Shown here: positions 1-30,439 of the stretch, piece after piece
Layout: each line of letters begins with the position of its first letter
Numbering within the stretch: the first letter of the stretch is position 1
Source: Rhodamnia argentea
Taxonomy: Eukaryota > Streptophyta > Magnoliopsida > Myrtales > Myrtaceae
Direction of reading: 5' to 3'
Length of the DNA stretch: 64,000 nt
Assembly (NCBI RefSeq): GCF_020921035.1
Contig: NC_063160.1
Span: 18,193,095-18,257,094, forward strand
Notes under the pieces: model-generated
Database searches by the model: none
Seen by the model: the letters and a program-made list of their open reading frames with translations, nothing else
Told to the model about the DNA's origin: nothing
Position numbers and translations under genes: made by a program

Positions 1-147
1 CAAGGTCGAACAAGCCTAATCGTCCCATTTTGTACGCTCCATAACTTCCATAATTGTCTTACTTGACGATCAAACAGATCGGGCTCTAACTAAGACTTCT
101 CTTGATCTTGAAATGGTGTGTATAGACCCACAACGCTGACTGAAGGT

Positions 148-235
148 ATTGGAATATATAAATATTAAACCACGCCTTCTTTTAAAAGCTTAATCTAATA
201 GAAGAATGCATGATTTAATATTTATATATTCCAAT
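148..235. repeat. Perfect 22-bp inverted repeat (hairpin)
   Basis: Positions 148-169 and 214-235 are exact reverse complements (arm begins ATTGGAATATATAAAT), separated by a 44-base spacer. The folded length of about 88 nt could be a tiny foldback element or the end of an older repeat. No gene lies next to it. The pairing is read directly; its nature is unknown. Confidence 0.75.
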
Positions 236-539
236 AGAAGGTCGCGATCGAAGTCTGTGTTTATGAGTCAATAAAGAAATCAGAGCCAGTTGTGAACATT
301 TTGTGGTGGCAGGACATGAAATGAGTCTGAATGGTGAGTGATAACATAAGCTTTTCTCTCTGTGGGGCTATTACATTGTCTGTACATTTTGTCTCTACTT
401 TGTTCTGGCATGCTTGTGTTCTTCTTCTTGACTCCTAAACGAAATGGGCCAAATAAATGGAACGTGTGCTTCTCAGTTGTTTTTCTCTTTTATCCCAATC
501 CCTTTGCTTATACATTATTCATTCAAGCATGTCAACATG

Positions 540-740
540 TCTGCAATTATCAATTCAAACGATGGGAAGATTCGTTCATACAAACATAACGTTGCCATAG
601 ACAACGACGAAGAGAAGGATATGCATTTCGATCCCCCTAGGAAAACAAAATTAGATTGCAGTGTCTTAGACATTTTGTTAGAAAATCCAGACTCTCCCAC
701 GTCTGCACTTTTAAACTTTCGCTGGGAAAATCACCAATGA
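540..740 (+). repeat. Unit 'X', copy 1: conserved unidentified reading frame
   Basis: First of three related blocks (others at 3918-4135 and 10405-10626). In the plus strand it reads as about 60 codons containing HNVAIDNDEEKDMHF and ending in LLENPDSPTSALLNF. Relative to the other copies it lacks about 36 bases in the middle, a frame-preserving difference. I do not recognise a protein family. It may be a gene fragment or part of an old element caught in the tandem array. Confidence 0.55.
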
Positions 741-1976
741 TCGTCAACTTTCTCCTGGTTACGGGCAATGCGGACCTTCTTACTTCGCTACCACGTACTT
801 TGAGAAATCATTTCATGCGGTCAATTTCATTGCTGGCTTTGCTCTTGGAGAAATATAACTAGTTTTCGGCTAAGAAAATGAAGGAAAATCACGGAAATAT
901 ATGTGCCATGTAGCTTGTAGTGTGCTTTGAGAGGATGTTAAATCCTATGGTTCACTGCCTTAGTTTGAGTAGAGCGGATGCAAGATCAAGATTTTGAAAG
1001 GTCAAAGTTTGATGACCAACCTTTTAATTCCTTTTGCTCTAAGTTGCTAGTTCAAACTTCTTCGTGTAGGTTAGAACAAATGCAAAGTGTAATGGAAAAA
1101 TTTACCGAGAGAAAAATTAGTAAATCACATCATAAAATAAACGTCGATAACTAACTCAAATGAGAGTTGTTAACCTATTATTACGTGAAAGTTTAATCTA
1201 AAAAAAAAAATGGCGGGTTATGCTAAAGGTTGGTAAGTTTTTAAAAGAGTTAGTAAATGTAAAGAATTGTCAACAAATGACATAAAATTTTGATAACACA
1301 ATAGATAAATTTTGTAGATAAGAAAGGATATCGGTAAGTCACTCGATGGAAAGGTAATAACCAAAAATTAGTTGGTAATTCAATCCGATGGTAATTGATA
1401 AATCACGTTAATTTGGGTTAATAATTTGATATAGTGCTTAGTAAAATCGAACCGTTAGTAAGTTACGAAAATAAACGGTAGCTAAGTTTGAACAAAAATT
1501 CCATATTTGCACACCATCAAGAAATGTTGGCAATTTTGTAAAACTGGTGAAATTTACCGGGGCGAAGGAAAATTCGTATGTTTTTTTAAGAATTCTGCCA
1601 TTTACGGAATGCTTTTCATGGTTGTGAAGATCTAAACTAGCCTAAGTAATACAATGTTAAGCTAGTAAATTAAAATCTAATCGCGACATTGGACCACCTC
1701 CTCGTATGAGCTCATAGTACCCACTAGACAACTCAGGGCACATTCGACTATCAAAACAGAAAAGGAAAGATTATAGAAGTTCATCATATGTACAGCTGGA
1801 TTTAAGGAACCAACTAACCCACAAACAAAACTATTAACAAAAAATTGCCATTTGATAAATAAATTAAGTTAATTTAACCCGAATCACGAAAGCAAATTGT
1901 ATGCTTTCTCATCCTTCTCTTTCCTTTTTTTTTTTTCTAAATATTTTTAATCCTTCATTTTGGTTGAACAGGTTTC
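741..1976. other. Intergenic DNA downstream of the first J-protein gene
   Basis: AT-rich, no supported gene. The part around 895-1260 has a diverged counterpart at 12308-12690 (older duplication), and from 1267 onwards it is nearly identical to the DNA that begins at 6751 (recent duplication). Confidence 0.6.
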
Positions 1977-2552
1977 TTAATCTCTCCGGAGGTTCTGACA
2001 GCGTTGTCGCGCGGCCCACGACCCGTTCTTCTGAGCCATCCGATTGTTTGACCTCCTCTTCAGCTCGACGATCTGATCTTGCCACCTACCCCTCACCATT
2101 TCCCGACCATCGCACGTAAATATTCCATTACCGTCGACGACGCTGCATGGTGATCCCCAAGACACGGTCGAGCTCAGGCCCAGTTCGTAGTTATAAACTA
2201 GGCGCGACTCGGGGTCGGACAGCGTCTCGTAGGCCTCGTGAAGCCAGAGGAACATCCTCGTCGACTCTTCTTTCATCGACGGGTCGCGACACGCGTCCGG
2301 GTGATAACGGAGCGCCAGCGATCTGTACGCTTTCTTGATGTCGCCAGGGCTCGTGTCGTTAGGGTTCAGTGAAAGCAGCTCGTAGTAGTTGGAGCCATTT
2401 TCACGTGCCGTCCTGGTCGCCGGCGATGATGATGATGATGATTGGCATGAGATGGTGATCCTGGGTCGTGGCCTCGGTGCTGTGGAGAGCGAGGGAGACT
2501 GAGAGAGAGAAAGCTGGGAGGCTTTTAGGGTTGAAGCGAGAGAGATGGCCAT
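1977..2552 (-). CDS. Chloroplast J-domain protein (DnaJ 11-like), copy 1
   Basis: Intronless, 191 residues. Residues 1-50 look like a plastid transit peptide (Ser-rich, few acidic residues, a run of six Ser at 38-43). A J-domain follows at about 55-120, with the YYELLSL start, KKAYRSLALRYHPD helix II and the diagnostic HPD at 84-86. There is no G/F or zinc-finger region, so this is a type III (C) J-protein of the small stromal J11 kind, which stimulates the ATPase of stromal Hsp70. The start codon at 2552 is favoured over upstream in-frame codons because it begins the transit peptide and sits about 110 bases below a TATA box. Residue 103 is Trp where both other copies have Arg. It is one of three tandem copies and differs from copy 2 at eight residues. 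Confidence 0.9.
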   Translation of the reverse strand: MAISLASTLKASQLSLSQSPSLSTAPRPRPRITISCQSSSSSSPATRTARENGSNYYELLSLNPNDTSPGDIKKAYRSLALRYHPDACRDPSMKEESTRMFLWLHEAYETLSDPESRLVYNYELGLSSTVSWGSPCSVVDGNGIFTCDGREMVRGRWQDQIVELKRRSNNRMAQKNGSWAARQRCQNLRRD

Positions 2553-2658
2553 GAATGATCTTGGAACCGAGTTGTGTGTGAAGAACAGAACGGCAAGAGA
2601 CTTGATATAGCTTGGTTTGCTAGCTCTTGCTGAGCAGAAGCCGAATGAGTTGGGATTA

Positions 2659-2667
2659 TATTTATAG
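2659..2667 (-). promoter_or_regulatory. TATA box of J-protein gene 1
   Basis: Minus strand reads CTATAAATA, about 107 bases upstream of the ATG at 2552, a normal plant core promoter distance. The same box is kept in copy 2. Confidence 0.65.
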
Positions 2668-2944
2668 GGGTCCGTGAACGTGTGAGTCGGTCGATGTTGT
2701 CAATTCGTATCATCATCTACAAAGTAGTAGGTACCAACCATGAAAGTTCAAGGCAGGTGGCTTCCGAAGACCACGTTGAGTTCGACGTCAAACGCGTTCT
2801 CGTAGTAAAATATCGATTTGGGCAACAACTGTAGTTAAATACCAGCCATCATCGGTGGACTGACCAAGGGAAGGGATTAAGTACTCCGTGGCGAGTTCAT
2901 TAGTAGATTGATGATGACCTCGACTCGAGAGGAAATTACGCAAA

Positions 2945-3390
2945 GGTTTTAGACATATTTTATTTGTGTCAATTTAGTCAATCCTAAGCGTGTCAATTTA
3001 GCGAATTCGATCCTAAAGCTTTTTATGATTTGCGATTAATTTAGATACGAAAACGCTAATGTGGCGGTCTGGTCTGTGTCATTGGTCCGACATGGCACGT
3101 CCGACGCCGACGTGGATAATTTTAGTAACCTTTTTTTTATTTTTAAATTTTGTGAATTTAATATATATATATATATATATATTTTTTTTTTGCTTTTCCT
3201 CTTTTTCTTTTAAACTCGTAGCCGGCAAGGTTGCCGGCCACGATTAAGGACCGGCAACCCTCTCCTGGTCCGGGAGAAGGCGTCGGGCCCCTCGCTTGTG
3301 GCCTCACCCGGACCAGCCTACGGCCGGTGACCTCGTCGGCCAAGAGTTGGAAAAAAAAAAAGGAAAAGGAAAAGAAGGAAAAAAAGAAAA
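2945..3390. repeat. GC-rich dispersed repeat, truncated copy in S1
   Basis: Has the style of the family seen at 8440-9142: phrases such as GTCAATTTAG, then T-rich DNA, then a GC-rich core with self-complementary GCCGGCAAGG/GGCCGGTGAC stretches, then an A-rich tract. The right side present in the S2 copy is missing here, so a deletion or replacement in S1 ends inside it. A (TA)n run lies at about 3161-3182. Confidence 0.55.
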
Positions 3391-3917
3391 CCTTTTTAAT
3401 TGTGATATGTTGGGCGCATCACTTTTTGAATTATTTTGGCTTTTATGTACGATTTGAGAGAGAGAGAGAGATCGGGCGAGTGGGTGACAAAAAAAAGAGT
3501 TCGGGTACCCATATGTGAATTTTGGCCGTGTCGTGGATTATTAAGCTGCGAAAAACCGACCTGTGATTTAGCGAGACCGAGGATGGGATTTCCCTCTCGC
3601 TTTCTTCGAGTCCAAAGCATCTCTCGATTTAATTTCAAATCCACCCTGTGGCCTTGGTTTTTAAAACCGATGATTTTTCCAATAGCTTGACCATTTCTTC
3701 TTTCGTTATCCGTTATTTGGCCCCGATTATTCAAGAAGGAAACAAAGAGAATCGTTCGATTTAAAACGACGACTACCCAGATAACATGGAAAAAGAAAGG
3801 TCAATCCGTAATCATCGAGCGCAATTGGAGTTGGCAAATGCACGTGGCATGTTAGTTTTTCCAAAATTTTCTCTGGAAACAACGTGGAATAATACATCAT
3901 ATCTTTCTCTCTCGTCC
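3391..3917. other. DNA unique to S1
   Basis: About 500 bases that I cannot match to the S2 copy. No supported gene; includes a short (GA)n run near 3457 and purine-rich low-complexity DNA. It stands where S2 carries about 1.5 kb related to 16230-16930. Confidence 0.5.
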
Positions 3918-4135
3918 ATTCAAACGATGTGAAAATTCATTTGTACGGACATAACATCTGCATAGATAACGGCGAATGTAAGGATATACATTTTTATTTT
4001 CCTAGAAATACACGATTACATTGCAATGCCTTAGGCAGTTTCAATTTCATGGATCGTGTGGATGGAGAGCTTCTTTTGTTAGAAAATCCAGACTGCCCCA
4101 CAATTATGCTCCCAAAATTCCATGGGGAAAATTAG
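3918..4135 (+). repeat. Unit 'X', copy 2: conserved unidentified reading frame
   Basis: Reads as 68 codons from 3929 (begins MKIHLYGHNICIDNGECKD, ends MLPKFHGEN then stop). Near-identical to 10405-10626 and clearly related to 540-740. The frame is open in all three copies. No family recognised. Confidence 0.55.
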
Positions 4136-4439
4136 ACAATTTTGACAGTACATTCAAGTTGAAATTCTAGAAGGGAAATTGAGTAATTGTTCAACTCGAT
4201 TCTCTCTGATTTTGGTGTATATCCCGGATATACGTCTTTTCAAAAAATACGACGGCAACAATATTGGGGTAAATAACACCTTAAAAAACAGCAATCGTCG
4301 TCAAGCATCCAAGTATTATAAATAATGCTCGAATCTTCATCAACAATAGAATATCTTCAATAACCAATGCACTTTTCTTAGTAGTCATGTGCTACCGTAA
4401 ACAGGGTAATGTGTTTTTGAATTTTGAAATCTCAAAATT

Positions 4440-5714
4440 CCGATGGATGACACCCGATGTACTTATTATTAATGTGTAATTATATGTATATTGAGGTATT
4501 TATGTAATTGTGTTTATTTATACCCTTATTATAATTAGTTACTCATATAAATATATATTATACAACCCTAATTTGGGTTGAGCCACCATAAACACTCTGT
4601 GACTTTAACCATCAACATGGTATTAGAGAGGGAAAACGCATCACGTTCTTCAACATCTTTACCCTAAATCAACAATTTCTTTGCTCCAATTACTGCCTCA
4701 ACAATGTTCAATGCATCTGCAAATTTTTCTTCTTTTCTACCATCTCTTTGGCCATCATCTTCTCTTTTTGTTAATCCCAATTTCTCATCACCTCTAATAA
4801 TATAACGTCCACTTTCACCTCTTCTTCTCTTTTCTCTACCGTGCCGATCTCTACTGCTGCCCAAATTACCGCCGTGCAATCAACCTCGCCAACTCCATCT
4901 CGGTTTGAACCGATCATAATCTATAACAATATGTTGGGATATATGGGGGATTTTTTCCGTGTTCGCAGAGGCTTATCAATGATCTGAATTGTACTGTGGT
5001 GGCCAATCCCTCTTATTCCATTTGGATCAAGATGGATCAATGCATTTGTAGTTTGATTAACTCAACCCTCACAGTTGAGATTTTCTATGAAGTTCATGAT
5101 CTTCGAACATCTTAAGAGATTTGACTATCTCTAGGGTGACACTTTACTAATGGATGCGCAGCCAAGAAAATTGGATTAAAGCTTGATTTTCGGAACGCCG
5201 TTAAGAAACATGATCAGTCAATATCTGATTATCTTCAGCATTCGAAGTCAATTACGGATTCTCTCACCGCAATCAATTGCTCCGTCCGTGATAAGGACCT
5301 GGTGATTCAATCCCTCAATGGGCTCCCATCAGAGTATGATCCTTTTGTTACATCGGTCACCAATAGCCCTACTATTCTTTCCTTCGGTGATCTGCGGTCA
5401 CGCCTCCTCATACAAGAAGAACGATTTCTTCAAAAATTGAATGCCCCGTCTTCATCTGATATTCATCATGCTTTGATTGGTCATGTCACTTCACCCAATC
5501 CACTGTTTCGAGGGAGTTGTGGTGGATGTAATTTTAGGGGCCGAAGATCTGGTCAAGAGCAAGGTGGAGGGTTCTCGCGTGATCAATCGGTTTGGAAAGC
5601 TTCCAATGATCGATTTAATTTACAGCCATTCTCTGTCCGCTATGCTGATCGGTCCTCCCCTTTCTCTAGTCGGCCTTGTGGTGGTTCGAGGTCCTATGTT
5701 CCCCCATTCACCTA
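4440..5714 (+). mobile_element. Copia-type LTR retrotransposon remnant in S1 (fossil)
   Basis: An AT-rich stretch ending near 4614 resembles the 3' part of a short LTR. It is followed at 4618-4630 by TGGTATTAGAGAG, the usual Copia primer-binding site pattern for initiator-Met tRNA. The region to 5714 resembles a Copia gag (for example LIQEERFLQKLN). The element is broken and incomplete: no protease, integrase or reverse transcriptase is visible and I see no second LTR. A second copy, carried along by the tandem duplication, is at 10740-12074. Its insertion predates the recent duplication. Confidence 0.7.
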
Positions 5715-5720
5715 GGAAGG

Positions 5721-6470
5721 TGTTAAAATATGTCTCGAGTTTGATCCTAAAACGAACATATGAATTGCGAAAAAAAAAAATAAAGGCTGAACTTCTGTGG
5801 ATGAACGAAATCAAGAGAATCCAAACCAAAACGAAAAGGATATATTCTTGTTGGATTTGGCAAGGGACTTTATACGATGCAGTCTTGTATTTGGTTTTGA
5901 TTTTGTGGTTTTTCAATAGAAAGTCCAAGTGGACTTTGATTTGGGGATTATTGACTCGGTCAAGAAAGGATAAGGACTTGTTCAAATAAAAGGAAAGGGT
6001 AAAGAAAAAAAAAAAAAAACAGATACGGACTCTATCATGCAGAAGTTGTTTTGCGTCCAGCTTGCATATATAATAGCAAGCGAACGTCTTGGCCGAAGAT
6101 CATCGTTGAAGCGCCGACGTACGAGCGCTTGATAGAGGATTTTTCTCCGTCATTGAATTCTAAGTGTTGAAGCCAATAGAAATCTTGTATCAAGGTTTGT
6201 GTTATTTTTCTTTTGCGAGATTATTTCGCAAGGAATTGAGGGCTAAACACTGTGTGCGTTTTTAAATGTAATTGGGGCTGGGAAATACCGTGAGTGTTTG
6301 AGTGACTCGAGTGTGGTTCTGTAATCTCCGTGTATCGCTCGTTCTATAGCGGAATTCGTTGCTGCTCTTCCCGTGGACGTAGGTCTCTACGATCGAACCA
6401 CGTACATCCGGTGTCCGATTTATTTTCTTATTCTGTCTAGTTTATTGTTCGATCGCTTGTTCCGCGCAAC
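5721..6470 (+). mobile_element. Solo LTR (fossil) inside S1
   Basis: A 750-bp block starting TGTTAAAATATG and ending near CGCGCAAC, flanked by the direct repeat GGAAGG (5715-5720 and 6471-6476). The S2 copy lacks it and runs uninterrupted through the matching site at about 12075. It carries a promoter-like TATATAATAG near 6067 and no coding region, as expected of a solo LTR left by recombination between the two ends of a full element. The family is probably Copia, but this is an inference. Ends are certain to within a base or two. Confidence 0.85.
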
Positions 6471-7458
6471 GGAAGGCATTCTTGGATCTAGGCCTTAGCT
6501 TTCTTGTCGGATACGTAATAGAGCCAGGCACACTGCGCTACAATGTTGGCAAAGATTTAACCATGCCTTCACTACAACCGATTTAACGGAGCCGGGCACA
6601 CTGCTTCACTACATCAACACTTATTACTTGAGATATTCTCTTACATTTTAAGTCTTGATAACGAGTATTAACTAAGAAAATAAAAGAGGAAACTTAGAGA
6701 AAGTATATGCCTTGTAGCTTATAGTATGCTTTGAGAGGATGTGAAACCCTTTGTCAACAAATGACATAAAATTTTGATAACACAATAGATAAATTTTGTA
6801 AATAAGAAAGGATATTGGTAAGTCACTCGATGGAAAGGTAATAACCAAAAATTAGTTGGTAATTCAATCCGACAGTAACCGATAAATCACGTTAATTTGG
6901 GTTAATAATTTGATATAGTGCTTAGTAAAATCGAACCGTTAGTAAGTTACGAAAATAAATGGTAGCTAAGTTTGAACAAAAATTCCATATTTGCACACCA
7001 TCAAGAAAAGTTGGCAATTTTGTAAAACTGTTGAAATTTACCGGGGCGAAGGAAAATTCGTATGTTTTTTTAGGAATTCTGCCATTTATGGAATTTTTTC
7101 ATGGTTATGAAGATCTAAACTAGCCTAATTAATACAATGTTAAGCTGGTAGATTAAAATCTAATCGCGACAATGGACCACCTCCTCGTATGAGCTCATAG
7201 TACCCGCTAGACAACTCGGGGCACATTCAACCATCAAAACAGAAAACGAAAGATTATAGAAGTTCATCATATGTACAGCAGGATTTAAGGAACCAACTAA
7301 CCCACAAACAAAACTATTAACAAAAAATTGCCATTTGATAAATAAATAAAGTTAATTTAACCCGAATCACGAAAGCAAATTGTATGCTTTCTCATCCTTC
7401 TCTTTCCTTTTTTTTTTTCTAAATATTTTTAATCCTTCATTTTGGTTGAACAGGTTTC
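6471..7458. other. Duplication junction and intergenic DNA
   Basis: Up to 6750 this matches 12075-12353 (end of the duplicated block). From 6751 it matches 1267 onwards (start of the block). The TTGT at 6751-6754 is shared by both parental ends. No gene. Confidence 0.7.
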
Positions 7459-8034
7459 TTAATCTCTCCGGAGGTTCTGAGAGCGTTGTCGCGCGGCCCA
7501 CGACCCGTTCTTCTGAGCCATCCGATTGTTTGACCTCCTCTTCAGCTCGACGATCTGATCTTGCCACCTACCCCTCACCATTTCCTGACCATCGCATGTA
7601 AATATTCCATTACCGTCGACGACGCTGCATGGTGATCCCCAAGACATGGTCGAGCTCAGGCCCAGTTCGTAGTTATAAACTAGGCGCGACTCGGGGTCGG
7701 ACAGCGTCTCGTAGGCCTCGTGAAGCCGGAGGAACATCCTAGTCGACTCTTCTTTCATCGACGGGTCGTGACACGCGTCCGGGTGATAACGGAGCACTAG
7801 CGATCTGTACGCTTTCTTGATGTCGCCAGGGCTCGTGTCGTTAGGGTTCAGTGAAAGCAGCTCGTAGTAGTTGGAGCCATTTTCACGTGCCGTCCCGGTT
7901 GCCGGCGATGATGATGATGAAGATTGGCATGAGATGGTGATCCTGGGTCGTGGCCTCGGTGCTGTGGAGAGCGAGGGAGACTGAGAGAGAGAAAACTGGG
8001 AGGCTTTTAGGGTTGAAGCGAGAGAGATGGCCAT
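7459..8034 (-). CDS. Chloroplast J-domain protein (DnaJ 11-like), copy 2
   Basis: Intronless, 191 residues, nearly the same as copy 1, with differences at L14F, R47G, A80V, R89H, W103R, V130M, R150Q and C185S (copy 1 to copy 2). Transit peptide, J-domain at about 55-120 and HPD at 84-86 are intact. The frame is open further upstream to 8196, but the ATG at 8034 matches the starts of the other copies and lies about 105 bases below a TATA box, so I take 8034. Likely role: stromal co-chaperone for Hsp70. Both recent copies look intact, so both may be expressed. Confidence 0.9.
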   Translation of the reverse strand: MAISLASTLKASQFSLSQSPSLSTAPRPRPRITISCQSSSSSSPATGTARENGSNYYELLSLNPNDTSPGDIKKAYRSLVLRYHPDACHDPSMKEESTRMFLRLHEAYETLSDPESRLVYNYELGLSSTMSWGSPCSVVDGNGIFTCDGQEMVRGRWQDQIVELKRRSNNRMAQKNGSWAARQRSQNLRRD

Positions 8035-8138
8035 GAATGATCTTGGAACCGAGTTGTGGGTGAAGAACAGAACGGCAAGAGACTTGATAGCTTGGTTTGC
8101 CAGCTCTTGCTGAGCAGAAGTCGAATGAGTTGGGATTA

Positions 8139-8147
8139 TATTTATAG
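8139..8147 (-). promoter_or_regulatory. TATA box of J-protein gene 2
   Basis: Minus strand CTATAAATA at the same relative place as in copy 1. Confidence 0.65.
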
Positions 8148-8439
8148 GGGTCCGTGAACGTGTGAGTCGGTCAATGTTGTCGATTCGTATCATCATCTAC
8201 AAAGTAGTAGGTACCAACCATGAAAGTTCAAGGCAGGTGGCTTCCGAAGACCACGTTGAGTTCGATGTCAAACGCGTTCTCGTAGTAAAATATCGATTTG
8301 GGCAACAACTGTAGTTAAATACCAGCCATCATCGGTGGACTGACCAAGGGAAGGGATTAAGTACTCCGTGGCGAGTTCATTAGTAGATTGATGATGACCT
8401 CAACTCGAGAGGAAATTACGCAAAGGTTTTAGACATATT

Positions 8440-9142
8440 TTATTTGTGCCAATTTAGTTCTAAGTCTGTCAATTTAGCGAATTCGATCATGATGTGCGAT
8501 TAATTTAGATACGAAAACACTAATGCGGCGGTCTAGTCTGTGTCATCGGTCCTACGTGGCACGTCCGACGCCGACGTGTGGATAATTTTAGCAACCTTTT
8601 TTATTTTTAAATTTTGTGAATTTAATATTTTTTTTTGTTTTTCCTCTTTTTCTTTTAACTCTTAGCCGGCAAGGTCGCCAGTCACAGTTGAGGATTGGCG
8701 ACCCTCTCCTGGTCCGGGAGAAGGCGTCGGGCCCTTGCTTGTGGTCTACAAGGGCACCGAGGCACTCACTCGTAGACGGCAACTGCGTGGATACCCTCAC
8801 CCAGGCCAACCTATGGCTGGTGACCTTGTCGGCCAAGAATTGGAAAAAAAAAAAAAGGAAAAGGAAAAGAAGGAAAAAAAAGAAAAGAATAAAGAATAAA
8901 AAAATTATTCACTTTAGCGCCGGCCATGCCACATAAGACTATTGGCACCGACTAGATTGATAAATCGTCAAAAAGTTTAGAACTAAAATGACAAATTATC
9001 AAAAGATTTAGGACTAAATTGACACAATTAAAAGGTTTACGATTTAAATTTGATATTGTCAAAAGGTTTAGGATCAAATTGAAAAGTTTAGGACTGAATT
9101 AGTACAAGAACAATAAGTTTGGACTTTTTTAGTAATTTTCCG
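8440..9142. repeat. GC-rich dispersed repeat, full copy in S2
   Basis: Left part repeats GTCAATTTAG-like phrases; the centre has T-rich and A-rich tracts around a GC-rich core (GGCAAGGTCGCCAG, TCCTGGTCCGGGAGAAGG); the right part has many AGGACTAAATTGACA-like phrases and ends near TTTTTTAGTAATTTTCC. Other members of this style are at 14791-15285, 23150-23400, 37430-37745, 45983-46425 and 62815-63255. No coding capacity: a non-autonomous element. Confidence 0.6.
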
Positions 9143-9548
9143 ATGACTTTAGGGTGGATTGTAACTACCATCATTCACCCTTTATGTTGATGAAAAGAAT
9201 TTCTCAACAGACGATCTTTATCTCGATGTGTTGGGCTGAAGAATTATTCCGTGAACGTCACGTATTGCGTCATGAGTTAATGTGGTGCCCTGTCTACAGA
9301 TGTCAATTTTTCTGGATGTGTTGTCGTTCATTGAAAGTCATGGTAGAACATTGATTTGTAGGCATAAATGACACTAACAAAAAGAGGGGCCCATGTAAAT
9401 TGTCTGGTTAGTGTGCTAACGATGATAGATAATCCACTACTCAACATTATGTCTATAAAACGTTTTTCACATTTAACCATATATTAATATCAATAAAAAA
9501 AAAAGTATAATAAACTCAATGTTTGGTCGTGAAAGATAGTTTGGATCT

Positions 9549-10340
9549 TCGAAAGACATAGGCTCGTTATCAAACATGTCTTCGGGACAAAGCGAGGTTT
9601 AAAAAACCCTCGTGGACGACTCCATTTAGGACAAACAGGCCAAATCAAGTTTTAGATCTCACAATATACTCAGAACCTATCTTGACCAGAAAGGGTCTTC
9701 TTCCCCCCTCTCGTTGCTAAACAAAACAAAGGTAGGTGTCAAATTTTTGCGTATTAAAATCTCATCGGGCGGACAATCAGCTACCCCTATAAGCCGATGG
9801 CGCAGAAGGCTGGCGAGCACGGTTTTCTAACTCGCGTTACTTGAGGTCGACTCGTAGCATCGACCGGCAACCTAAATCACTTGCGACGTGATGGTGATCA
9901 AATAATAGGTGAGATTGAATGCATTTTCAATATCTTGTTTTCTTCCACTTGGTTTCCGGTGGTGTGAACGTACACATTCAATATTGATATAGCTATATCG
10001 TGTTAGGTGTTAGGCCAATGTGTATTGCGTGTGTACATTTTGTACATAGAATGTGTCGCCCTTAAAATGGTCAACCACCATAAGAAATTTGTACATAGCT
10101 TGTCCAAGAAGAGTACAAGAAATTTGTGCTCGCTCTTCTTTGGAGAGACAAAAAGTTAACCAGTAAATCCAGGGCCGGCGAGATTAGTCAAAGCATGATT
10201 AATCATTCTTGTCTGTTTCGGCCGCCCGTTGGATGCAGCCGAACCGGCACATGTCACGGGCCAGAACTAGGGCTGGAATTTGGCCGCCGCACAGGCCTCA
10301 AATGTCATTAATAGTTAAATCACGTTTTGATTTTATGCAC
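9549..10340. repeat. Flank block shared with 16230-16930
   Basis: Phrases such as AGGCTCGTTATCA, CAAATCAAGTTT, AAATCTCATCG and GTGACAAAAAGTT occur in the same order in both blocks. They mark the upstream flank of J-protein genes 2 and 3 and show the older duplication reached this far. Gene 1 has lost the equivalent block. No gene seen. Confidence 0.6.
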
Positions 10341-10404
10341 TTCAGATTTTGAAAAATTGATACGAGCGCTGGTTTTTTTTATTTTTTCCCAATCTTTCTG
10401 TCTA

Positions 10405-10626
10405 GTCCATTCAAACGATGTGAAGATTCATTTGTACAGACATAACATCTGCATAGATAACGGCGAATGTAAGGATATACATATTTATTTTCCTAGAAAG
10501 ACACGATTACATTGCAATGTCTTAGGCAGTTTCAATTTCATGGATCGTGTGGATGGAGAGCTTCTTTTGTTAGAAAATCTAGACTGCCCCACAATTATGC
10601 TCCCAAAATTCCACGGGGAAAATTAG
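10405..10626 (+). repeat. Unit 'X', copy 3: conserved unidentified reading frame
   Basis: Plus-strand frame reads HNICIDNGECKDIHIYF and ends MLPKFHGEN before a stop. The frame is open upstream to 10327. Pairs with 3918-4135. Function unknown. Confidence 0.55.
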
Positions 10627-10739
10627 ACAATTTTGACAGTCCATTCAAGTTGAACTCGAATCTTCATCAACAATCGAATATCTTCAATAACCAATGCACT
10701 TTTCTCGGTAGTCATGTGCTACCGTAAACAGGGTAATGT

Positions 10740-10803
10740 GTTTTTGAATTTTGAAATCTCAAAATTCTGATGGATGACACCCGATGTACTTATTATTAAC
10801 GTG

Positions 10804-10852
<49 letters not shown>

Positions 10853-12074
10853 AGGTATTTCTGTAGTTGTGTTTATTTATACCCTTATTGTAATTAGTTA
10901 CTCATATAAATATATATTATACAACCCTAGTTTGGGTTGAGTCACCATAAACACTCTGTGACTTTAACCATCAACATGGTATCGGAGCGGGAAAACGCAT
11001 CACGTTCTTCAACATCTTTACCCTAAATCAACACTTCCTTTGCTCCAATTACTGCCTCAATAATGTTCAATGCATATGCGAATTTTTCTTCTTCTCTACC
11101 ATCTCTTTGGCCATCATCTTCTCTTTTTGTTAATCCCAATTTCTCATCACCTCTCATAATATAATGCCCACTTTCACATCTTCTTCTCTTTCCTCTATTG
11201 TGCCGATCTCTACCGCTGCCCAAATTACCGCCGTGCAATCGGCCTCGCCAACTCTATCTCGGTTTGAACCGATTTTAATCTATAACGATATGCTGGGATA
11301 TGTGGGGGATCTTTTCCGTGTTCGCAGAGGCTTATCAATGATCGAATGGTACTTGTGGTGGCCAATCCCCCTTATTCCATTTGGATCAAGATGGATCAAT
11401 GCATTTATAGTTTGATTAACTCAACCCTCACGGTTGAGATTTTACGTGAAGTTCATGATCTTTGAACATCTTGAGAGATTTGACTATCTCTAGGGCGAAA
11501 CTTTACTAATGGATGCGCAGCCAAGAAAATTGGATTAAAGCTTGATTTTCAAAATGCCGTTAAGAAACCCGATTAGTCGATGTCTGATTATTTTCAGCAC
11601 CTGAAGTCAATTGCGGATTCTGTCACCGCAATCAATTGCTCCATCTCCGATAAGGACCTGGTGATTCAATCCCTCAATGGGCTCCCATCGTAGTATGATC
11701 CCTTTGTTACGACGGTCACCAATAGCCCTACTATTCTTTCTTTCGGTGATCTGTGGTCACACCTCCTCATACAAGAAGAATGATTTCTCCAAAAATTGAA
11801 TGCCTCGTCTTCATCTGATATTCATCATGCTTTGATTGGTCATGTCATTTCACCCAATCCACTGTTTCGAGGGAGTTGTGGTGGATGTAATTTTAGGGGC
11901 CGAAGATCCGGTCAAGAGCAAGGTGGAGGGTTCTCGCGTGATCAATCGATTTGGAAAGCTTCCAATGATCGATTTAATTTACAGCCATTCTCTGTCCCCT
12001 ATACCGATCGGTCCTCCCCTTTCTCTAGTCGGCCTTGTGGTGGTTCGAGGCCCTATGTTCCCCCATTCACCTAG
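10740..12074 (+). mobile_element. Copia-type LTR retrotransposon remnant in S2 (fossil)
   Basis: Duplicate of 4440-5714: LTR-like AT-rich DNA, the primer-binding site pattern TGGTATCGGAGCGG at 10978-10990, then gag-like sequence. Broken and incomplete. It has the uninterrupted site where the S1 copy took up the solo LTR. Confidence 0.7.
10808..10850. repeat. (AT)n microsatellite
   Basis: About 21 AT units in the LTR-like part of the S2 remnant. The matching place in S1 (about 4482-4495) has only a short interrupted run, so the tract grew (or shrank in S1) after the duplication. Confidence 0.9.
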
Positions 12075-12353
12075 GGAGGCATTCTTGGATCTAGGCCTTA
12101 GCTTTCTTGTCGGATCTGTAATAGAGCCAGGTACATTGCGCTACAATGTCGGCAAAGATTTAACCATGCCTTTACTACAACCGATTTAACGGAGTCGGGC
12201 ACACTGCTTCACTACATCAACACTTATTACCTAAGATATTCTCTTACATTTTAAGTCTTGATAACGAGTATTAACTAAGAAAATAAAAGAGGAAACTTAG
12301 AGAAAGTATATGCTTTGTAGCTTATAGTATGCTTTGAGATGATGTGAAACCCT

Positions 12354-13213
12354 TTGTTCACCGCTTAGTTTTGAGTGGAGCGTATGTGATTTCAAGATTT
12401 TGAAAGATCAAGTCTACTTATAAGTTATAAGCACCTTGGTTGCTAGTCCAAATTTAATGGTGTAGGTTCTTCTAAATTACAAGATATAATTAGTATACAG
12501 TTTAACCGAATACTATATCGATAATTTAAAGGAAGAAAAAATTGATAAGATAAATAAACAAATAAATATTGGTAATTAACTCAACTGAGAGTTGATAACC
12601 CAATACGATGTGATAATTGAATCGGAGAAAAGTATTGAGTTAAGCTAGTGATTGGTAATTTTAAAAATAGTTAGCAAGTTTAAAGGGTTTCAACAAATGG
12701 CATGAAAATATATAACATAATAGGCAAAGTTGGTAAGTACAAAAAGAAGAATGCTAGTAAGTAACTCAGATGAGAGTTGGCAAGTAAAATCTAGTTAGTA
12801 AATCAATTTGACGATAGTTGATAGATCACTTTAATATAGATTGATGATTATATACGGAGGAGTTAGCGAATTCGAAATATTAGTTAGTTATGAAGAGAAA
12901 AATTGATAATTTTATACAAAAATTGCTTATCTGAAAACTAACAAGAAAAGTGGGTAACATGAAGTTTATGGATACGGACCGTACTTTATTCTTTTTTTAA
13001 ATAAGGAAGAATAGAATTGTGCGAGCTTAGACGGGGAAGGAAGAAACCAGAATGACAAAAGAATAAACGAATCTGAATCAATGAATCATCAATGAAGTGT
13101 CTTACATAATCATGAATAATTAGAGGGACTAATAGGAAAAACAAATCATGTTCTTTCTTTTCCTTCATTCTCTCCTTTTTTTTTAATCCTTAATTTCGGT
13201 CGAACAAAGTTTC
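12354..13213. other. Intergenic DNA downstream of J-protein gene 3
   Basis: AT-rich. A diverged counterpart of 950-1900 with repeated GGTAAGT/AGTTGGTAA-like phrases. No gene supported. Confidence 0.5.
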
Positions 13214-13780
13214 TTAATCTCTCCGGAGGTTCTGAGCGCGTGTTCGCGCGGCCCACGACCCGTTCTTCTGAGCCACCCTTCTGCTTGACCTCCTCTTCAG
13301 CTCAGCGATCTGATCTTGCCACCTACTCCTCATCATTTCCTGATCACCGCTCGTATCCGCGACCCTGCGTGGTGATCTCCAAGACACGGTAGAGCTCAGG
13401 CCCAGCTCGTAGTTATACTCCTGGCGCGACGTGGGGTCGGACAGCGTCCTGTAAGCCTCGTGAAGCCGAAGGAACATCCTCGTTGACTCTTCCTTCATCG
13501 ACGGGTCGCAGCATGAGTCCGGGTGATACCGGAGCGCCAGCGATCTGTATGCTTTCTTGATGTCGCCAGCGCTCGTGTCGTTAGGGTTCAGCGAAAGCAG
13601 CTCGTAGTAGTTGGAGCCATTTCCACGTACCGAGTTGGTCGTTGATGATGATGATGATGATGATGATGATTTGCAGGAGATGGTGATCCTGGGCAGTGGC
13701 CTTTGTTTTGTGGAGAGCGAAGGAGGTTGAGAGAGAGAAAGCTGGGAGGTTCTTAGGGTTGAAGCGAGAGAGACGGCCAT
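13214..13780 (-). CDS. Chloroplast J-domain protein (DnaJ 11-like), copy 3
   Basis: Intronless, 188 residues. Same architecture as copies 1 and 2: Ser-rich transit peptide with a longer run of nine Ser (38-46, coded by a GAT-repeat read on the minus strand), J-domain at about 57-122 and HPD at 86-88. The C-terminal part is shorter because residues around the VVDGNGIFTCDG segment of the other copies are missing. It is clearly more diverged than copies 1 and 2 are from each other, so it descends from the older duplication. The open frame extends to 13915, but 13780 matches the other starts. The TATA region is altered compared with the other two genes, so expression may differ. Confidence 0.9.
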   Translation of the reverse strand: MAVSLASTLRTSQLSLSQPPSLSTKQRPLPRITISCKSSSSSSSSSTTNSVRGNGSNYYELLSLNPNDTSAGDIKKAYRSLALRYHPDSCCDPSMKEESTRMFLRLHEAYRTLSDPTSRQEYNYELGLSSTVSWRSPRRVADTSGDQEMMRSRWQDQIAELKRRSSRRVAQKNGSWAARTRAQNLRRD

Positions 13781-13876
13781 GGATGATCTTGGAGATGGGT
13801 TGTTCGAGAAGAACACAAGAGACTTCGATTCTTTACGTTGCTGGCTCTTGCTGAGCAGAAGTTTGAATGCGTTGGG

Positions 13877-13888
13877 ATATATTTGTAG
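13877..13888 (-). promoter_or_regulatory. Altered TATA region of J-protein gene 3
   Basis: At the position of CTATAAATA in copies 1 and 2, copy 3 reads CTACAAATATAT on the minus strand. A TATA-like run remains, but shifted by a few bases. Confidence 0.45.
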
Positions 13889-14790
13889 GGGTCTGTGAAC
13901 GTGCGAGTCGGTCAATGTTCGCAGTTTGTATCTTCTTCCTTAAAATACTAGGAACCATGAAAGGGCAAGGAAGGTGGCTCTCGAAGACCACGTTGAGTTC
14001 GAGGTTGAACGCGTTTTTGGAGCAAATATCGATTTGGGCACTGACCGTATTAAAGTACGGCTACCCTTCATGGGGCGTGTCGTCAATTCATTTCTGTTGC
14101 CGCCCAAAAATGCCGAAACCTTTGACTGTTGAGCCGGGCTAGCCTGTCGGCAAACTTGTTTAGTCGACAAAGGAACATGAATGGAAATAACTAAGTCCCG
14201 GAGCACGGGCGTCGGTAAACAAAACTGTTCAATCGATGAAAGGCCATGACTTATGAGATTTTCGAGATGCTGGAAGCATGGTAGTTATTTATGTGACGGA
14301 GCCAACAATTTCGGACACAACCGTTGCGACTCGGTAAAGGATGAAGATTGACAAAGCCGGGAAGAAGGGAAACTGAGACAACCGTCAAATCGCGGAGACA
14401 TAGATCTTGGAATCCAGTGATGAGAGCGGAACTAGGAACGTCGAGAGTTAAATGTTGATGGTGGCTGTGATAGAGTGTACGAGAAACGACTGTGAAGTAT
14501 TTGTATTTGTTTAATGAAGTTGCTAGCATGATATTATTGTGAGTTATTTCTGATTACATGATTTCCAAATTAACGAATACGTGGTGATAGTGTGTGAATC
14601 TACGTTTAAGATTATACAATCCCTGAAAATACTGTTAAGGAAGCATTTTCCTTTGTTTTATATCAAGTAACCATATGTAAATAGAAGATGCTAAATTCTA
14701 GGAGTCACGTAGCATGTGTTTTTTTTTTTCTTTGGAACAGTTGTTAATTGTTGATGATACGTATAAATACTTGAATTGTAATTTATAGAA

Positions 14791-15285
14791 GGGAGCATTA
14801 CCAAAAAAGTCTTAAACCTATTGTAATTATATAAATTCAGTCATAAACTTTTTTTTTGCGAATTTAGTCTTAAACTTTTTACATCTAGTCGATTCAGTCC
14901 ATTTGGCAAGCCAATGATGACCTTGCCAATTTTTAATAATATTTTGAGAATTTTATTGTTTTTTATTTTTTCTTTTCTTTTCTTTAGTTTTTTTTTCCCA
15001 ACCCCTTAGTGGGGCGAGGGCCGAGACACCCTCGTCTGGCCGGACAAGGGCACCACAACCCTTGCCGACCTAAGTGTTGGGGAAAAAGAACCTAAAAAAA
15101 TAAAAGAAAAAATCATAAAAAGTGAAAAAACTGTTAAAAAAAAGTCCACATCGGTGTCAACCGGCCAAATGGGCTAAATTGGCACAAATGCAAAATGTTC
15201 ATGACTGAATTGGTCGAAAAAAAAAAGGTTTATGATTGAATCTGCACAATTGCAACAGGATTAGGATTTTTTTGGTAATTTTCCC
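14791..15285. mobile_element. MITE-like element with long terminal inverted repeats
   Basis: Left end ATTACCAAAAAAGTCTTAAA and right end (reverse complement) ATTACCAAAAAAATCCTAAT continue to match for about 50 bases. The centre holds a GC-rich core with CCTCGTCTGGCCGG and pyrimidine/purine tracts. No ORF. Part of the right-end sequence is repeated again at 15355-15415. Confidence 0.65.
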
Positions 15286-15564
15286 CTTCCGGAAGGTCTT
15301 GTCAATTAATCGATGAATACCTCTTATTCAATCTCAATTTCATTCACACCAAAAAAAAAAAAAATCTCAATTTCATAATTGCAATAGATTTAGGATTTTT
15401 TTGATAATTTTCCCCTTGTAGAAGGCACTTTTTGGCGAAACAATTTCATTAGTAGGATTAATTATATGATCTCCACTCGAAGATGGCTTGCAAAGCATTA
15501 TAGCCCTTTCACTTTTTTGTCAATTCACTATCTTTACATTGATGATTGGGCCAAAGAATTATTT

Positions 15565-16050
15565 AGGGCGCGCATGATAAGTATTATGTTTCTATGTTTC
15601 TCTTTCAAACCTATTTCTGGAATAGGTTTACAACAGAAATTAATTTGGCAATGCAATTTTTTTTTTTCTGAAAAATAAGTTTTTAGTCAAGAAATAGGTT
15701 TGGAATAGAATTGAGAAGAAGAAGTTTCCTAGTTCTCTGTTTCTGGAACAAAAATAGAAACAAAAATTCTTGTCATCACTCACTCCCTCTCTCTTGCGTG
15801 CGGCCTCCCTCTCTCTCATATCCCTCTCGCCGGACGCCGATTGTCGTTCGGCGGCCCGGTTAAGGTCCGGTGGCTAGCAACCATATAAATTTTGTATTGT
15901 TATCAAAATAAATTTCTATTTTAGGACTAGATATTTTGTGTCGTCAAACACGTTATTTTGCTCAGAAACTCGTCCAGGAATTAAAATAAAAAAAATATTT
16001 ATGTCTAGAAATTGTTGTCAAGAACAGAATGATTATCATTCGCGCCCTTA
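15565..16050. mobile_element. hAT-style non-autonomous DNA transposon
   Basis: Ends are inverted: left AGGGCGCGCATGATAA, right (reverse complement) AAGGGCGCGAATGATAAT. Length about 486 bp, no transposase ORF. The same terminal sequence flanks the element at 31776-32311, so the two belong to one family. I could not find a clear 8-bp target duplication. Confidence 0.65.
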
Positions 16051-16229
16051 GTGAATGCCATATATCTTGTCATGAGTTAATAGAATCATTGGCTACAAAT
16101 GGCGATTTTTCTTGTTTTCTTGTCAATTGTTAAAGTGAAATTTCTTCTTATAGTGCAAAAGATTATACGTGGTCCACTATTTAATACTACATCGATAAAA
16201 TGGATTTTACAGAAAACCATATCTTTGAT

Positions 16230-16930
16230 TACACAGGCTCGTTATCATCTATGTCTTTGAAAGAAAGCGACATTCTAAGAAAACCTCGGGGACGACGACA
16301 CATTCTTAGACATACAGAACAGACCAAATCAAGTTTCAGATCTCATAATATAACTCGAAACCTCCTCCCGTTGCTAAAAAGAAAACAGGGGTCAGTATCA
16401 AATTTTATATATTGAAATCTCATCGTGAGGACAATCAAGCACCGGATAAGCCGCCGGCATAAAAAGCCAGCGAGCACCGACCAGTGACCTTAAATCACTT
16501 GCGACGTGAAGATGACCGTATAGCGGGTGAGGTCGGATCCACTTTCAAATCTTCTCTTGTTTCCTTCCTCTTGATTTCCGTGGAAAGCGAATGTAAAAAT
16601 TCATGTGGCTGTATTCTTTATTTGCGTGGCCAATTTGGACATAGCTTCTGTCTCCCTAAATATGGTCAACCGTTGTAAGAATCTGCACATGGCTAGTCCG
16701 AGAATCGAACAAGAATCTGCCATTTTACTTGGCAATAATATTTTTTTCCCTCGCTCATCTTGGGAGTGACAAAAAGTTGAACCAGTACATCCATAAAGCC
16801 GGGCCGACACACGTCAATGGCGACATGCGAGAGAGTCTTCTAAATTTGGTCGCGACCCGGGGCCACACATGTCACTAGTAGTCAAATCGCATTTTGGCCT
16901 TCATCTACTCTAGATCTTAAAAAAATGGAC
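16230..16930. repeat. Flank block shared with 9549-10340
   Basis: Diverged copy of the block upstream of J-protein gene 2, here upstream of gene 3. It marks the outer limit of the older duplicated unit. No gene. Confidence 0.55.
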
Positions 16931-17755
16931 CGGACTCATTAGCATTACCAATCAGGGCCAAAATGTAATTAATGATTGTTAAGTAAATGGGACACGACTT
17001 TCCCTCGATTTGTTTTGTTTCGTTTCGTTTCGTTCCCACATATGAAAATGCGCGAGAGCTCATCCCACGGTCTATTTGGAGTGGAATGGTTGTATAATGC
17101 TCTCCATGGGGCTTCAAGACAAAGAGTCGACTTAGGCTATGCATGATGAATACTAGATATGTGGCGAAGGACCGCACGGGATTTGACAAGATTTAAGCAA
17201 AGTCGGTGCGAAACCGGCATGTTTCGACCATTTTCGGGGTGAAGTTGGCTTGTAATCCGGTGAGTTGATTTTTAAGTTTGAGCTTAGAGTGTTATCTTTG
17301 GCAGACATGCTGCGATAGTGCGATGCAATCGTGGGGAGTAGGAGTACGATGATACGAGATGAAATGCGACTCGCAGCCGACCATGTCGGGGAAACGTGGG
17401 CTCAGGCCCCGTTGATGTCTAGATTCGAGAAGTTCGTTATTGGGCTTCAAGCCTATCAAATATGTTGGGCTGAAAAGAAAGTTCACCTCGAAAAGAATGG
17501 GAAATGGGTTCAAACAAGGTTTCTGAAAGACGCTTCATGCAATACTCCTTTTACGGCCCAATGCAACCTCCTCCTCCTCCTCTTTCTTCTTCTTTTCTTT
17601 TTGCTACTATCCGTCCCCATCTCAAACGTATACCGAACCCCACGTCACTGGTCCGGGATGTCGGTGGCTGCTCAAAGGCAGGTATTAACAGAAGAATTTG
17701 AGCTCGCTGTAGGTAAAATCAATATCCACGGAGTACTTCACTAACCTCTCGGTAG
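16931..17755. other. Intergenic, no supported gene
   Basis: A 137-codon open frame at 17331-17744 has a Leu-rich low-complexity stretch coded by pyrimidine repeats and no recognisable domain. I do not treat it as a gene. Confidence 0.4.
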
Positions 17756-28100: not shown

Positions 28101-30439
28101 GAAATCTAATATTACCTAATTTAAATATCAAACAGAACATAAACGAACTCTTAGAACAGAACCTTATGACCTTAGAAAACTTGCTGGAAAAGAAAAAATA
28201 AAACCAAAATGCAACTAGACCAGAAAAAAAGGTTTTGGGAGTAGAAGCTAGATGCTGAAAAATGCTGGAACTGTATTATCTTAGAACTAAAGCTTAAATG
28301 TTAAAAAAAATTGGTTGCTCTCTGCCAGGGTATTTGTCATCGCTGCAACTGTAAGAGTGACTGTGATATCAAGACAAGGGAGCTCATCCACTCACAAATA
28401 TGCAAATCCCACTATACTAAACTTCAACAGAATGAGAAACTACCCCAGAATTATTTCGACCTTATGAACACTCTGACATACTTTCAAGTTGCCATGAAGC
28501 AATGTATCGGCATTTCATCAGCAGATGCATTACGCACTCCACTAAGATGAACAAGCCAGACTTTGACGACTAATGGAAGAAGATTATCTAATAATACTCC
28601 ATATTGGCTCATCTACTGCGGTCTAAAAACCTCCTATGAACGTTATTCTCAGTGTTCATATTCCGGTACAAGGAAATGTTTATGTTTCCTTCTTTAATGA
28701 TGGTAACTCTTCGTAATGATGACACCGGTCAAATTACTCTTTGCAAACAGAACCTTCTAGATCAAATCAGTCATCATAGTAGACATTTCACCTGAGCATA
28801 GAAAAGTTTCAAACTAATTTTGCTCTGCATGAGGCACAAGAAAATCTGTGGTTACCTCTCATCACTACTTTTGGCAGACTCCTGTTCTTCCCCACTGACT
28901 GCTGGCGTTTCTCCAAGTTGAATATTATGCGAGTTAAGCTCAAGTGATTCATCTTGATTGAAGAGCATACTATCATATACCTAAAAAGAAGATATAGATC
29001 GTTTAAGTTCCTTGAACACAATAATATCATTTCCTAAGCTGGTGGCAGAAAATATTGTAAAAGTTCAATCAAGGAGAAGATGTGCTGAATTGGAACTTTC
29101 AAGAAACAGACTGACCCCTTCCAAGCTTTCACTCTTATTTACATCGGGAGCTATACTCGTGGCAACATTGCCAACTTTCTCATTCATTAAAGATTCAACC
29201 TCTGATGAAGCTGAAGCCAGCATTGTCTCAATCTGTGCACTATCCTCAGCACTCAAACTTTTGATTGACATATCCACTTTTTCCAGAGCAGTAGCAGTCC
29301 TTGTACCATCCGTTAGAACATTTTCCTGGATACTTTCCTCAGAGGGACTATCACTAGACACTTCAACTAATGAGTCAGCTTTAGATGAGGCTGGGGCTAT
29401 ATCTTCATCCACAGTCTTCAGTTCCAAAACTTCCTCGACATCACTCACGTTTTCCATGTCCTTTGTGGGATGTGACTTCAAATCAGTAGTAAGAGAAGCA
29501 TCATGACAATTCTTGCCGATACTAATGGTTTCCAAACTTACGACATCATTAGGCTCAGAAAGACCAATTGAAGGGGGAGGCTCTTGCTCGATAGTCTCCA
29601 TCAATCCTCCCTCGCTACTTATTCTAGGTACATAATCAGGAGTAGGACCAAAGGAATCACTTGTTGCCACATTGGATCGAGCATCTTCCAACGTTGTCGC
29701 AATTGATTGAGGACTTTCAAAAGACGCAATTTCTGCCATACCCGAATGATCTCCTCTAGTTGAAACTATCTCCTCATCAATCAGTTCAGGTGAGCCCCAT
29801 CTACATTCAGCTACTAAACGGGATTCAGCTTTCTCTTTTGTAGTATAGTTGAAGTTACTGCTTGCAACTTCTTTCTTGTGGTCACTGGAGAAACTTGTGG
29901 AAGCAACTTGATCAACATCGTTACTGCCTGCAACTTCTTTCTTGTGGTCACTGGAGAAACTTGTGGAAGCAACTTGATCAACATCGTCACCAGTACCTTC
30001 CAATTCCACCATTTCAACATCCACCCTCGTCGCTTCCCTCACATCACCGAAGCGAAAAAGGACACTACCATCAGAACACTCTGCCCAAAATCCCCCAAAA
30101 GACAAAGCAATAAGAAGAAGCACCAAAACAAGACAAAAATACTCAAACAACAGAAAAGAACCCATTAGAGAAACAGAAGCTGCTCGCCATCGAACCTGTT
30201 GTGGAGACGAGGCCAAAATTAGGCGAAGAGGAGGAATCTCCTGGCGACGAGGGCTTGCAGGAAACGCAACGGATCGACCTCCTCTTGCGAACGCACACTC
30301 GCAGAGGGCACTTTCGCGAGATTAGAAAGCGATGGCTAGTGCATGGAGAAAACAGAGAACCGGAGCAAGAGAAGGTCAAAGAACGAGGCTCCATGGAGAA
30401 CCACATGGCGAGACTCTTCACGGCTACAGAATCGATCAT
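25149..30439 (-). CDS. PP2C-family protein phosphatase, plastid type (PP2C62/BIPP2C1-like)
   Basis: Nine exons: 30196-30439, 29116-30080, 28856-28980, 27888-27954, 27182-27269, 26636-26805, 25919-26062, 25600-25728 and 25149-25325; 702 residues, all phases agree. The first 50 residues are basic and Ser-rich, a likely plastid transit peptide. Residues about 80-440 are a low-complexity acidic region rich in Ser, Glu and Val, with an internal repeat. The C-terminal third is the phosphatase: [17 protein letters not shown] (a DGxGxW form rather than the classic DGHGG), [24 protein letters not shown] and [14 protein letters not shown], with the acidic metal ligands present. It resembles the SpoIIE/PPTC7-like branch including Arabidopsis PP2C62 and rice BIPP2C1. 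It would remove phosphate from Ser/Thr, with Mn or Mg. The start could be further up at 30580; 30439 is preferred for its transit-peptide look. Confidence 0.85.
29855..29986 (-). repeat. In-frame 66-bp tandem duplication inside the PP2C gene
   Basis: Units 29855-29920 and 29921-29986 differ at one base and code for 22 residues twice (unit contains [17 protein letters not shown]). Because 66 is a multiple of three, the frame is kept. The near identity implies a recent event. Confidence 0.9.

Follow-up and report, generated by a model that had tools for sequence, protein, structure and literature searches.

Two of the three related DnaJ units clustered in this region of the Rhodamnia argentea genome, A and B, probably arose through one tandem duplication closed by microhomology-mediated joining. 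The cluster occupies the left 17 kb (1–17000) of the window, by which we mean the whole stretch of 64,000 nucleotides analyzed here, and each of its units (A, B, and C) carries a minus-strand gene with a DnaJ domain. Self-BLAST also reveals, under the A and B copies, an older array made of the repeats X, R, and Y. These elements are located as follows:

1977–2699, minus strand: DnaJ open frame of unit A, 191 aa from ATG
7459–8196, minus strand: DnaJ open frame of unit B, 191 aa from ATG, 95.8% identical to that of A
13214–13939, minus strand: DnaJ open frame of the older unit C, 188 aa from ATG
1267–6754: duplicated unit, copy A, with its A-specific changes (self-BLAST and alignment)
6751–12357: duplicated unit, copy B (self-BLAST and alignment)
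550–676 (X0), 3915–4041, and 10406–10532: X repeat (self-BLAST)
855–1533: R_A, the spacer repeat of unit A in full length, sharing 67% identity with R_C
12261–12957: R_C, spacer repeat of unit C (self-BLAST and alignment)
9556–10121 and 16231–16715: Y repeat (self-BLAST)

X0, which self-BLAST finds 75–76% identical to the X copies at 3915–4041 and 10406–10532, is a remnant of an older unit. The closest named proteins, among the best 120 of 1501 matches, are DnaJ proteins of Syzygium, Eucalyptus, Corymbia, and Psidium, and relatives carry the annotation "dnaJ 20, chloroplastic-like." In a protein tree of 14 rows (11 inner branches, 7 of them open), A is sister to B (support 92/82), a shorter Psidium protein of 135 aa joins their group (support 97/90), and C falls outside; the unit C protein is nearest by identity, among the matches listed, to another Psidium protein (89%). 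From this small tree and from the identities, the A/C split appears to precede the divergence from Psidium, and the duplication that gave A and B appears to follow it. The window as a whole is nuclear DNA of a plant and also holds frames of the chlorophyll a/b-binding, peroxidase, annexin, CRM-domain, lipid-transfer, and hyccin-domain types; Rfam and tRNA scans across its full length returned no match. Two imperfect palindromes, at 14791–15285 (self-inverse match of 514 columns, 70%) and at 147–236 (90 bp, 84% self-inverse match), are possible fold-back elements in or beside the array. Farther right, a 66-bp tandem repeat in two copies (29854–29987; 98% matches, 22 codons each) sits in a 418-aa minus-strand open frame (29065–30321) that has no Pfam match.

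The joint between the two copies can be placed to the base. The self-BLAST matches A1267–3390/B6751–8886 and 6471–6754/12074–12357 abut one another, and in a three-way alignment B departs from C at 12357 and joins A at 1267, with the motif TTGT common to both:

6751–6754, plus strand: novel junction, 4-bp TTGT microhomology, with C-type sequence on the left and A-type sequence on the right
1267–1270, plus strand: TTGT at the right parental end, in A (self-BLAST and alignment)
12354–12357, plus strand: TTGT at the left parental end, in C (self-BLAST and alignment)

The letters around the joint read AATTGTCAACAAATGACAT in A (1265–1283), GAAACCCTTTGTCAACAAATGACAT in B (6743–6767), and GAAACCCTTTGTTCACCGCTT in C (12346–12366). 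Because the flanking bases differ on both sides, the overlap is exactly 4 bp, the length that the original prediction had given for the motif shared by the two parental ends. In ungapped comparison over 30 bases on each side of TTGT, B agrees on the left with C at 29 positions and with A at 10, and on the right with A throughout and with C at 7 positions. Informative sites tell the same story over longer distances: left of the joint (91 columns), 20 sites unite B with C, 2 unite B with A, and none unites A with C, the corresponding numbers being 4, 75, and 3 to its right (261 columns) and 5, 126, and 12 in the gene (867 columns). These counts bear out the switch from C-type to A-type sequence predicted at 6751. 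The junction contains no filler, and homology continuing across 6751 on both sides, which had been named in advance as an observation that would speak against the prediction, was not found. The copies thus lie head to tail with a single novel joint showing identity of a few base pairs without longer homology, and both parental sites are intact, each continuing through R in the alignment, in A and in C, as expected of a microhomology-mediated tandem duplication. When breakpoint pairs were drawn at random (200,000 draws for each region), the chance of an overlap of at least 4 bp was 1.8% for breakpoints from the wider flanks and 3.1% for breakpoints inside the R spacer, and the 4-bp overlap by itself is weak evidence for microhomology joining. 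Inspection by eye of 6735–6770 revealed neither transposon ends nor a target-site duplication, and an LTR-like insert in copy A ends 280 bp left of the joint. A weak AT-rich tandem repeat (22 bp × 1.9 copies) begins two bases right of TTGT in both A and B.

Unit B also lacks a stretch of the R repeat that the other two units possess:

949–1266: part of R_A without counterpart in B, about 319 bp (318 bp tested)
12358–12690: part of R_C without counterpart in B, 333 bp

The two parts are alignable (A949–1266 against C12358–12688, 208 of 301 aligned sites identical), and a BLAST search of the missing stretch against the window gave matches in A and C alone and none in B. Since this homologous stretch is absent from B, the ends joined do not occupy homologous positions, as had been claimed; their offset, first put at about 340 bp, is corrected to about 319 bp when measured in A and about 333 bp when measured in C, the alignment leaving an uncertainty of 1–2 bases. 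The joint and its overlap, the two types of parental sequence, and the absence of the homologous stretch are all demonstrated. Both ends fall within one repeat of about 700 bp, offset by some 320–333 bp; by our own arithmetic, so small an offset would be about 12% likely if ends were placed at random in a 5.5-kb unit, and the shared-repeat position gives a mild hint of homology-guided pairing. Transposon excision leaving an empty site in B is disfavored as the origin of the missing stretch: A and C share it at the identity just given, B is built of C-type and A-type flanks, and inspection of the sequences showed no fitting target duplication or terminal repeats.

The sequence of events that we favor would start from an ancestral array of two older units, X0-R_A-DnaJ_A-Y-X_A-(Copia fragment)-R_C-DnaJ_C-Y_C. 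A single repair or replication event would have joined the left part of R_C, ending at 12357, to the right part of R_A, starting at 1267, through the TTGT common to both ends, the partner being most simply the sister or homologous chromatid. The segment in between would thereby have been duplicated head to tail, with one new joint. A polymerase-theta-type alternative end joining, or a template switch driven by microhomology, would be the likely pathway, rather than homologous crossing-over. Afterwards, the middle of copy A would have been lost or replaced (510 bp where B has 1505 bp), and copy A would have acquired the LTR-like insertion. What is visible is the end product, from which we infer the single step, the end-joining or template-switching machinery behind it, and the order of the later events.

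These later events have left clear differences between the copies. The duplicated spans do measure about 5.5 kb, as first stated (A 1267–6750, B 6751–12353), but only about 4.06 kb of copy A can be aligned by BLAST, in four pieces (1267–3390, 3901–4163, 4328–5720, and 6471–6754), and the middles are not homologous:

3391–3900: middle of A, 510 bp, without match to the 1505 bp of B at the same place
8887–10391: middle of B, 1505 bp, without match to A3391–3900
5721–6470: insertion in copy A only, 750 bp, starting with TGTT and with GGAAGG on both sides (5715–6476 with these flanks), putatively LTR-like
4328–5714, plus strand: stretch with a Copia-type gag fragment in unit A, with its counterpart in B at 10655–12073

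Two parts of the B middle (9556–9820 and 9873–10121) match sequences beyond gene C (16231–16477 and 16491–16715) at 66–68%, so that B appears to keep the older state; the 510-bp middle of A seems to be a replacement. Stretches of 164 and 756 bp are also present in A and absent from B, the longer one corresponding to the 750-bp insertion plus a 6-bp target repeat, at the site of which B has GGGAGG once. The Copia stretch occupies corresponding positions in the two copies, and self-BLAST detects no copy of it between X0 and R_A; its insertion therefore predates the A/B copying. Copy B further contains a (TA)21.5 tract (10808–10850) at which A is without 32 bp, a fast-changing difference between the two.

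Counted over aligned sites, A and B differ at 48 of 1726 in A1267–3000, 10 of 263 in the spacer, 12 of 284 in 6471–6754/12074–12357, and 92 of 1387 in the Copia gag stretch (162 of 3660 when pooled). This count omits A3001–3390, which is partly of low complexity and more diverged (9% over A3067–3266 in a binned alignment, misaligned beyond); over the whole of A1267–3390, BLAST reports 2179 columns with 75 mismatches and 13 gap openings. With the Copia fragment set aside, the copies diverge by about 3–4%. Their proteins are distinguished by 8 of 191 residues, with dN 0.019 and dS 0.037 between the A and B genes, and dS reaches 0.20 for A/C and 0.25 for B/C. With this divergence and the later insertions, the term "recent" applied to the duplication in the original prediction was overstated and holds in a relative sense: on that scale, the event would postdate the divergence from Psidium yet leave time for several later changes. 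For scale only, and with no kinship to Rhodomyrtus assumed, a Myrtaceae genome paper places the Rhodomyrtus–Psidium split at about 24.4 million years (PMC11165866). The Copia gag stretch diverges more than the gene stretch. Methylation as the reason for this is unsupported, since transitions at CG/CHG sites number 42 of 69 there and 26 of 36 in the gene stretch.

Whether crossing-over could have produced the same arrangement depends on the homology available to it. R_A and R_C are 67–69% identical, with a longest exact run of 15 bp; the DnaJ genes, at 82% identity and with exact runs of 32 and 30 bp, are a better substrate for crossing-over. Because the two spacers differ at about 30% of their sites and share no exact run above 15 bp, ordinary unequal crossing-over at the position of the joint is unlikely on this comparison, nor does the joint lie at homologous positions in long, highly identical repeats, where nonallelic homologous recombination (NAHR) would set it. 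A two-step variant deserves more attention, in which unequal crossing-over between R_A and R_C gave a full-length hybrid R, whose crossover point was afterwards lost in a deletion of about 320 bp bounded by TTGT. This would account for both ends lying in one repeat, R_A and R_C being alignable at the identity given above, and short deletions with microhomology are common. It nevertheless calls for two events, the second of which must happen to span the first, and it starts from a crossover between spacers with the divergence just described when the longer runs of the DnaJ genes would be the expected place for one. We consider this course unlikely. The 4-bp overlap, the lack of filler and of homology across the joint, and the unused runs in the DnaJ genes together favor a single microhomology-mediated joining. 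As crossover and deletion would yield an identical final sequence, the term "microhomology-mediated" rests on parsimony; the original prediction of such joining in place of unequal crossing-over is thus partly supported: the single junction with its 4 bp at nonhomologous positions stands, ordinary crossing-over there is unlikely on grounds of identity, and the predicted pathway is the most parsimonious choice.

Two further explanations were weighed. If the assembly had set two haplotypes of a single unit head to tail at a false joint, a divergence of 3–4% with large indels could be allelic in an outcrossing tree. The window, however, contains no N, the 8 residue differences in 191 and the dS of 0.037 are in our judgment high for alleles, and overlap assembly does not make joints resting on a 4-bp overlap, so that the joint is, on general grounds, unlike its products; such an artifact is highly improbable. 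Alternatively, the array may have had three old units, with an R_B long devoid of the missing stretch, and gene conversion may later have homogenized A and B up to the edges of heterology. Conversion tracts can stop at large heterologies, and both tract ends would then coincide with the loss. Conversion would nonetheless have to cover about 5.5 kb, carry the Copia fragment along, and match 6471–6754 to 12074–12357, while that fragment has no self-BLAST match in the X0–R_A spacer; a single duplication is simpler, and we find the conversion scenario very unlikely.

A more specific version of the microhomology-mediated joining is suggested by an inverted repeat in unit C that brackets the stretch absent from B, which we found post hoc, after several other ideas:

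12345–12355, plus strand: perfect 11-bp inverted repeat of unit C, left arm, located at the left breakpoint
12682–12692, minus strand: right arm, unit C, holding 12688, which is aligned with A1267

The left end of the joint (12353–12357) lies in the left arm or at most two bases from it, and the arm is intact in B, so that it probably already existed at the time of the duplication. In A, the best inverted repeat at the corresponding site is 4 bp, and the left side of C with the right side of A gives 6 bp. Among random pairs of 31-bp windows at the same distance, a repeat of at least 10 bp occurred in 5 of 6000 and one of 11 bp in 3 of 6000, frequencies that are uncorrected for the post hoc finding. 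The predicted fold of the skipped stretch is unusual in C (z −3.2, 1 of 100 shuffles as good) and ordinary in A (z +0.2, 57 of 100 shuffles as good), which speaks against a hairpin in A. We do not take as evidence the 60-bp pieces at the breakpoints, which form 5-bp stems: in C, one strand gave z −2.2 and the other −2.3, equaled by 8 and 6 of 200 shuffles, and in A z was 0.0 and −0.2. The joint might record a hairpin-bypass template switch, made while the paralogous spacers were misaligned: synthesis on R_C, at a fork or during repair, would have halted at the foot of a hairpin that the 11-bp repeat closes and resumed past it, in the paralogous spacer R_A, through TTGT. If true, one step would cover the microhomology, the skip of about 320 bp, and the position of both ends in the same repeat, and tandem arrays could grow even between copies too diverged for crossing-over. 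This is a post hoc lead, and quite unlikely to be the correct account.

Tandem copies are commonly ascribed to homologous crossing-over, yet here the seam of the added copy is not at homologous positions and the spacers are far diverged. Rice tandem insertions were reportedly treated by Vaughn and Bennetzen in 2014. NAHR is called the prevailing model for tandem direct duplications in one published abstract (PMC3744419), and unequal crossing-over is named for terpene synthase genes in the Myrtaceae genome paper (PMC11165866). The present case resembles NAHR in tandem gene arrays in adding one more unit to a pre-existing array of related genes and departs from it in that the joint is off homologous positions and about 320 bp of homologous sequence is missing. 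It also resembles the copy number variants (CNVs) that a rice survey attributes to nonhomologous recombination, the largest class there, these being likewise plant copies with little or no homology at their joints: among CNVs of all types (9015 in its figure), 52.98% fell in this class, 44.28% were mobile-element insertions, and 0.48% NAHR (PMC4812662). That count spans all types, whereas ours is a single tandem locus dated by divergence only, and as one locus it serves as an illustration. The mechanism is ordinary, of a known kind and expected from published surveys; the instance is well resolved. It likewise resembles the tandem duplications produced by polymerase-theta end joining (PMC7368036), which range from 1 kb to 1 Mb, mostly about 10–20 kb, and share with the A/B pair a kilobase-scale head-to-tail copy, one new joint, and an overlap of a few bases. 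The A/B duplication differs from them in being old, known from sequence alone rather than observed as it occurred, and in having both of its ends inside one older, diverged repeat.
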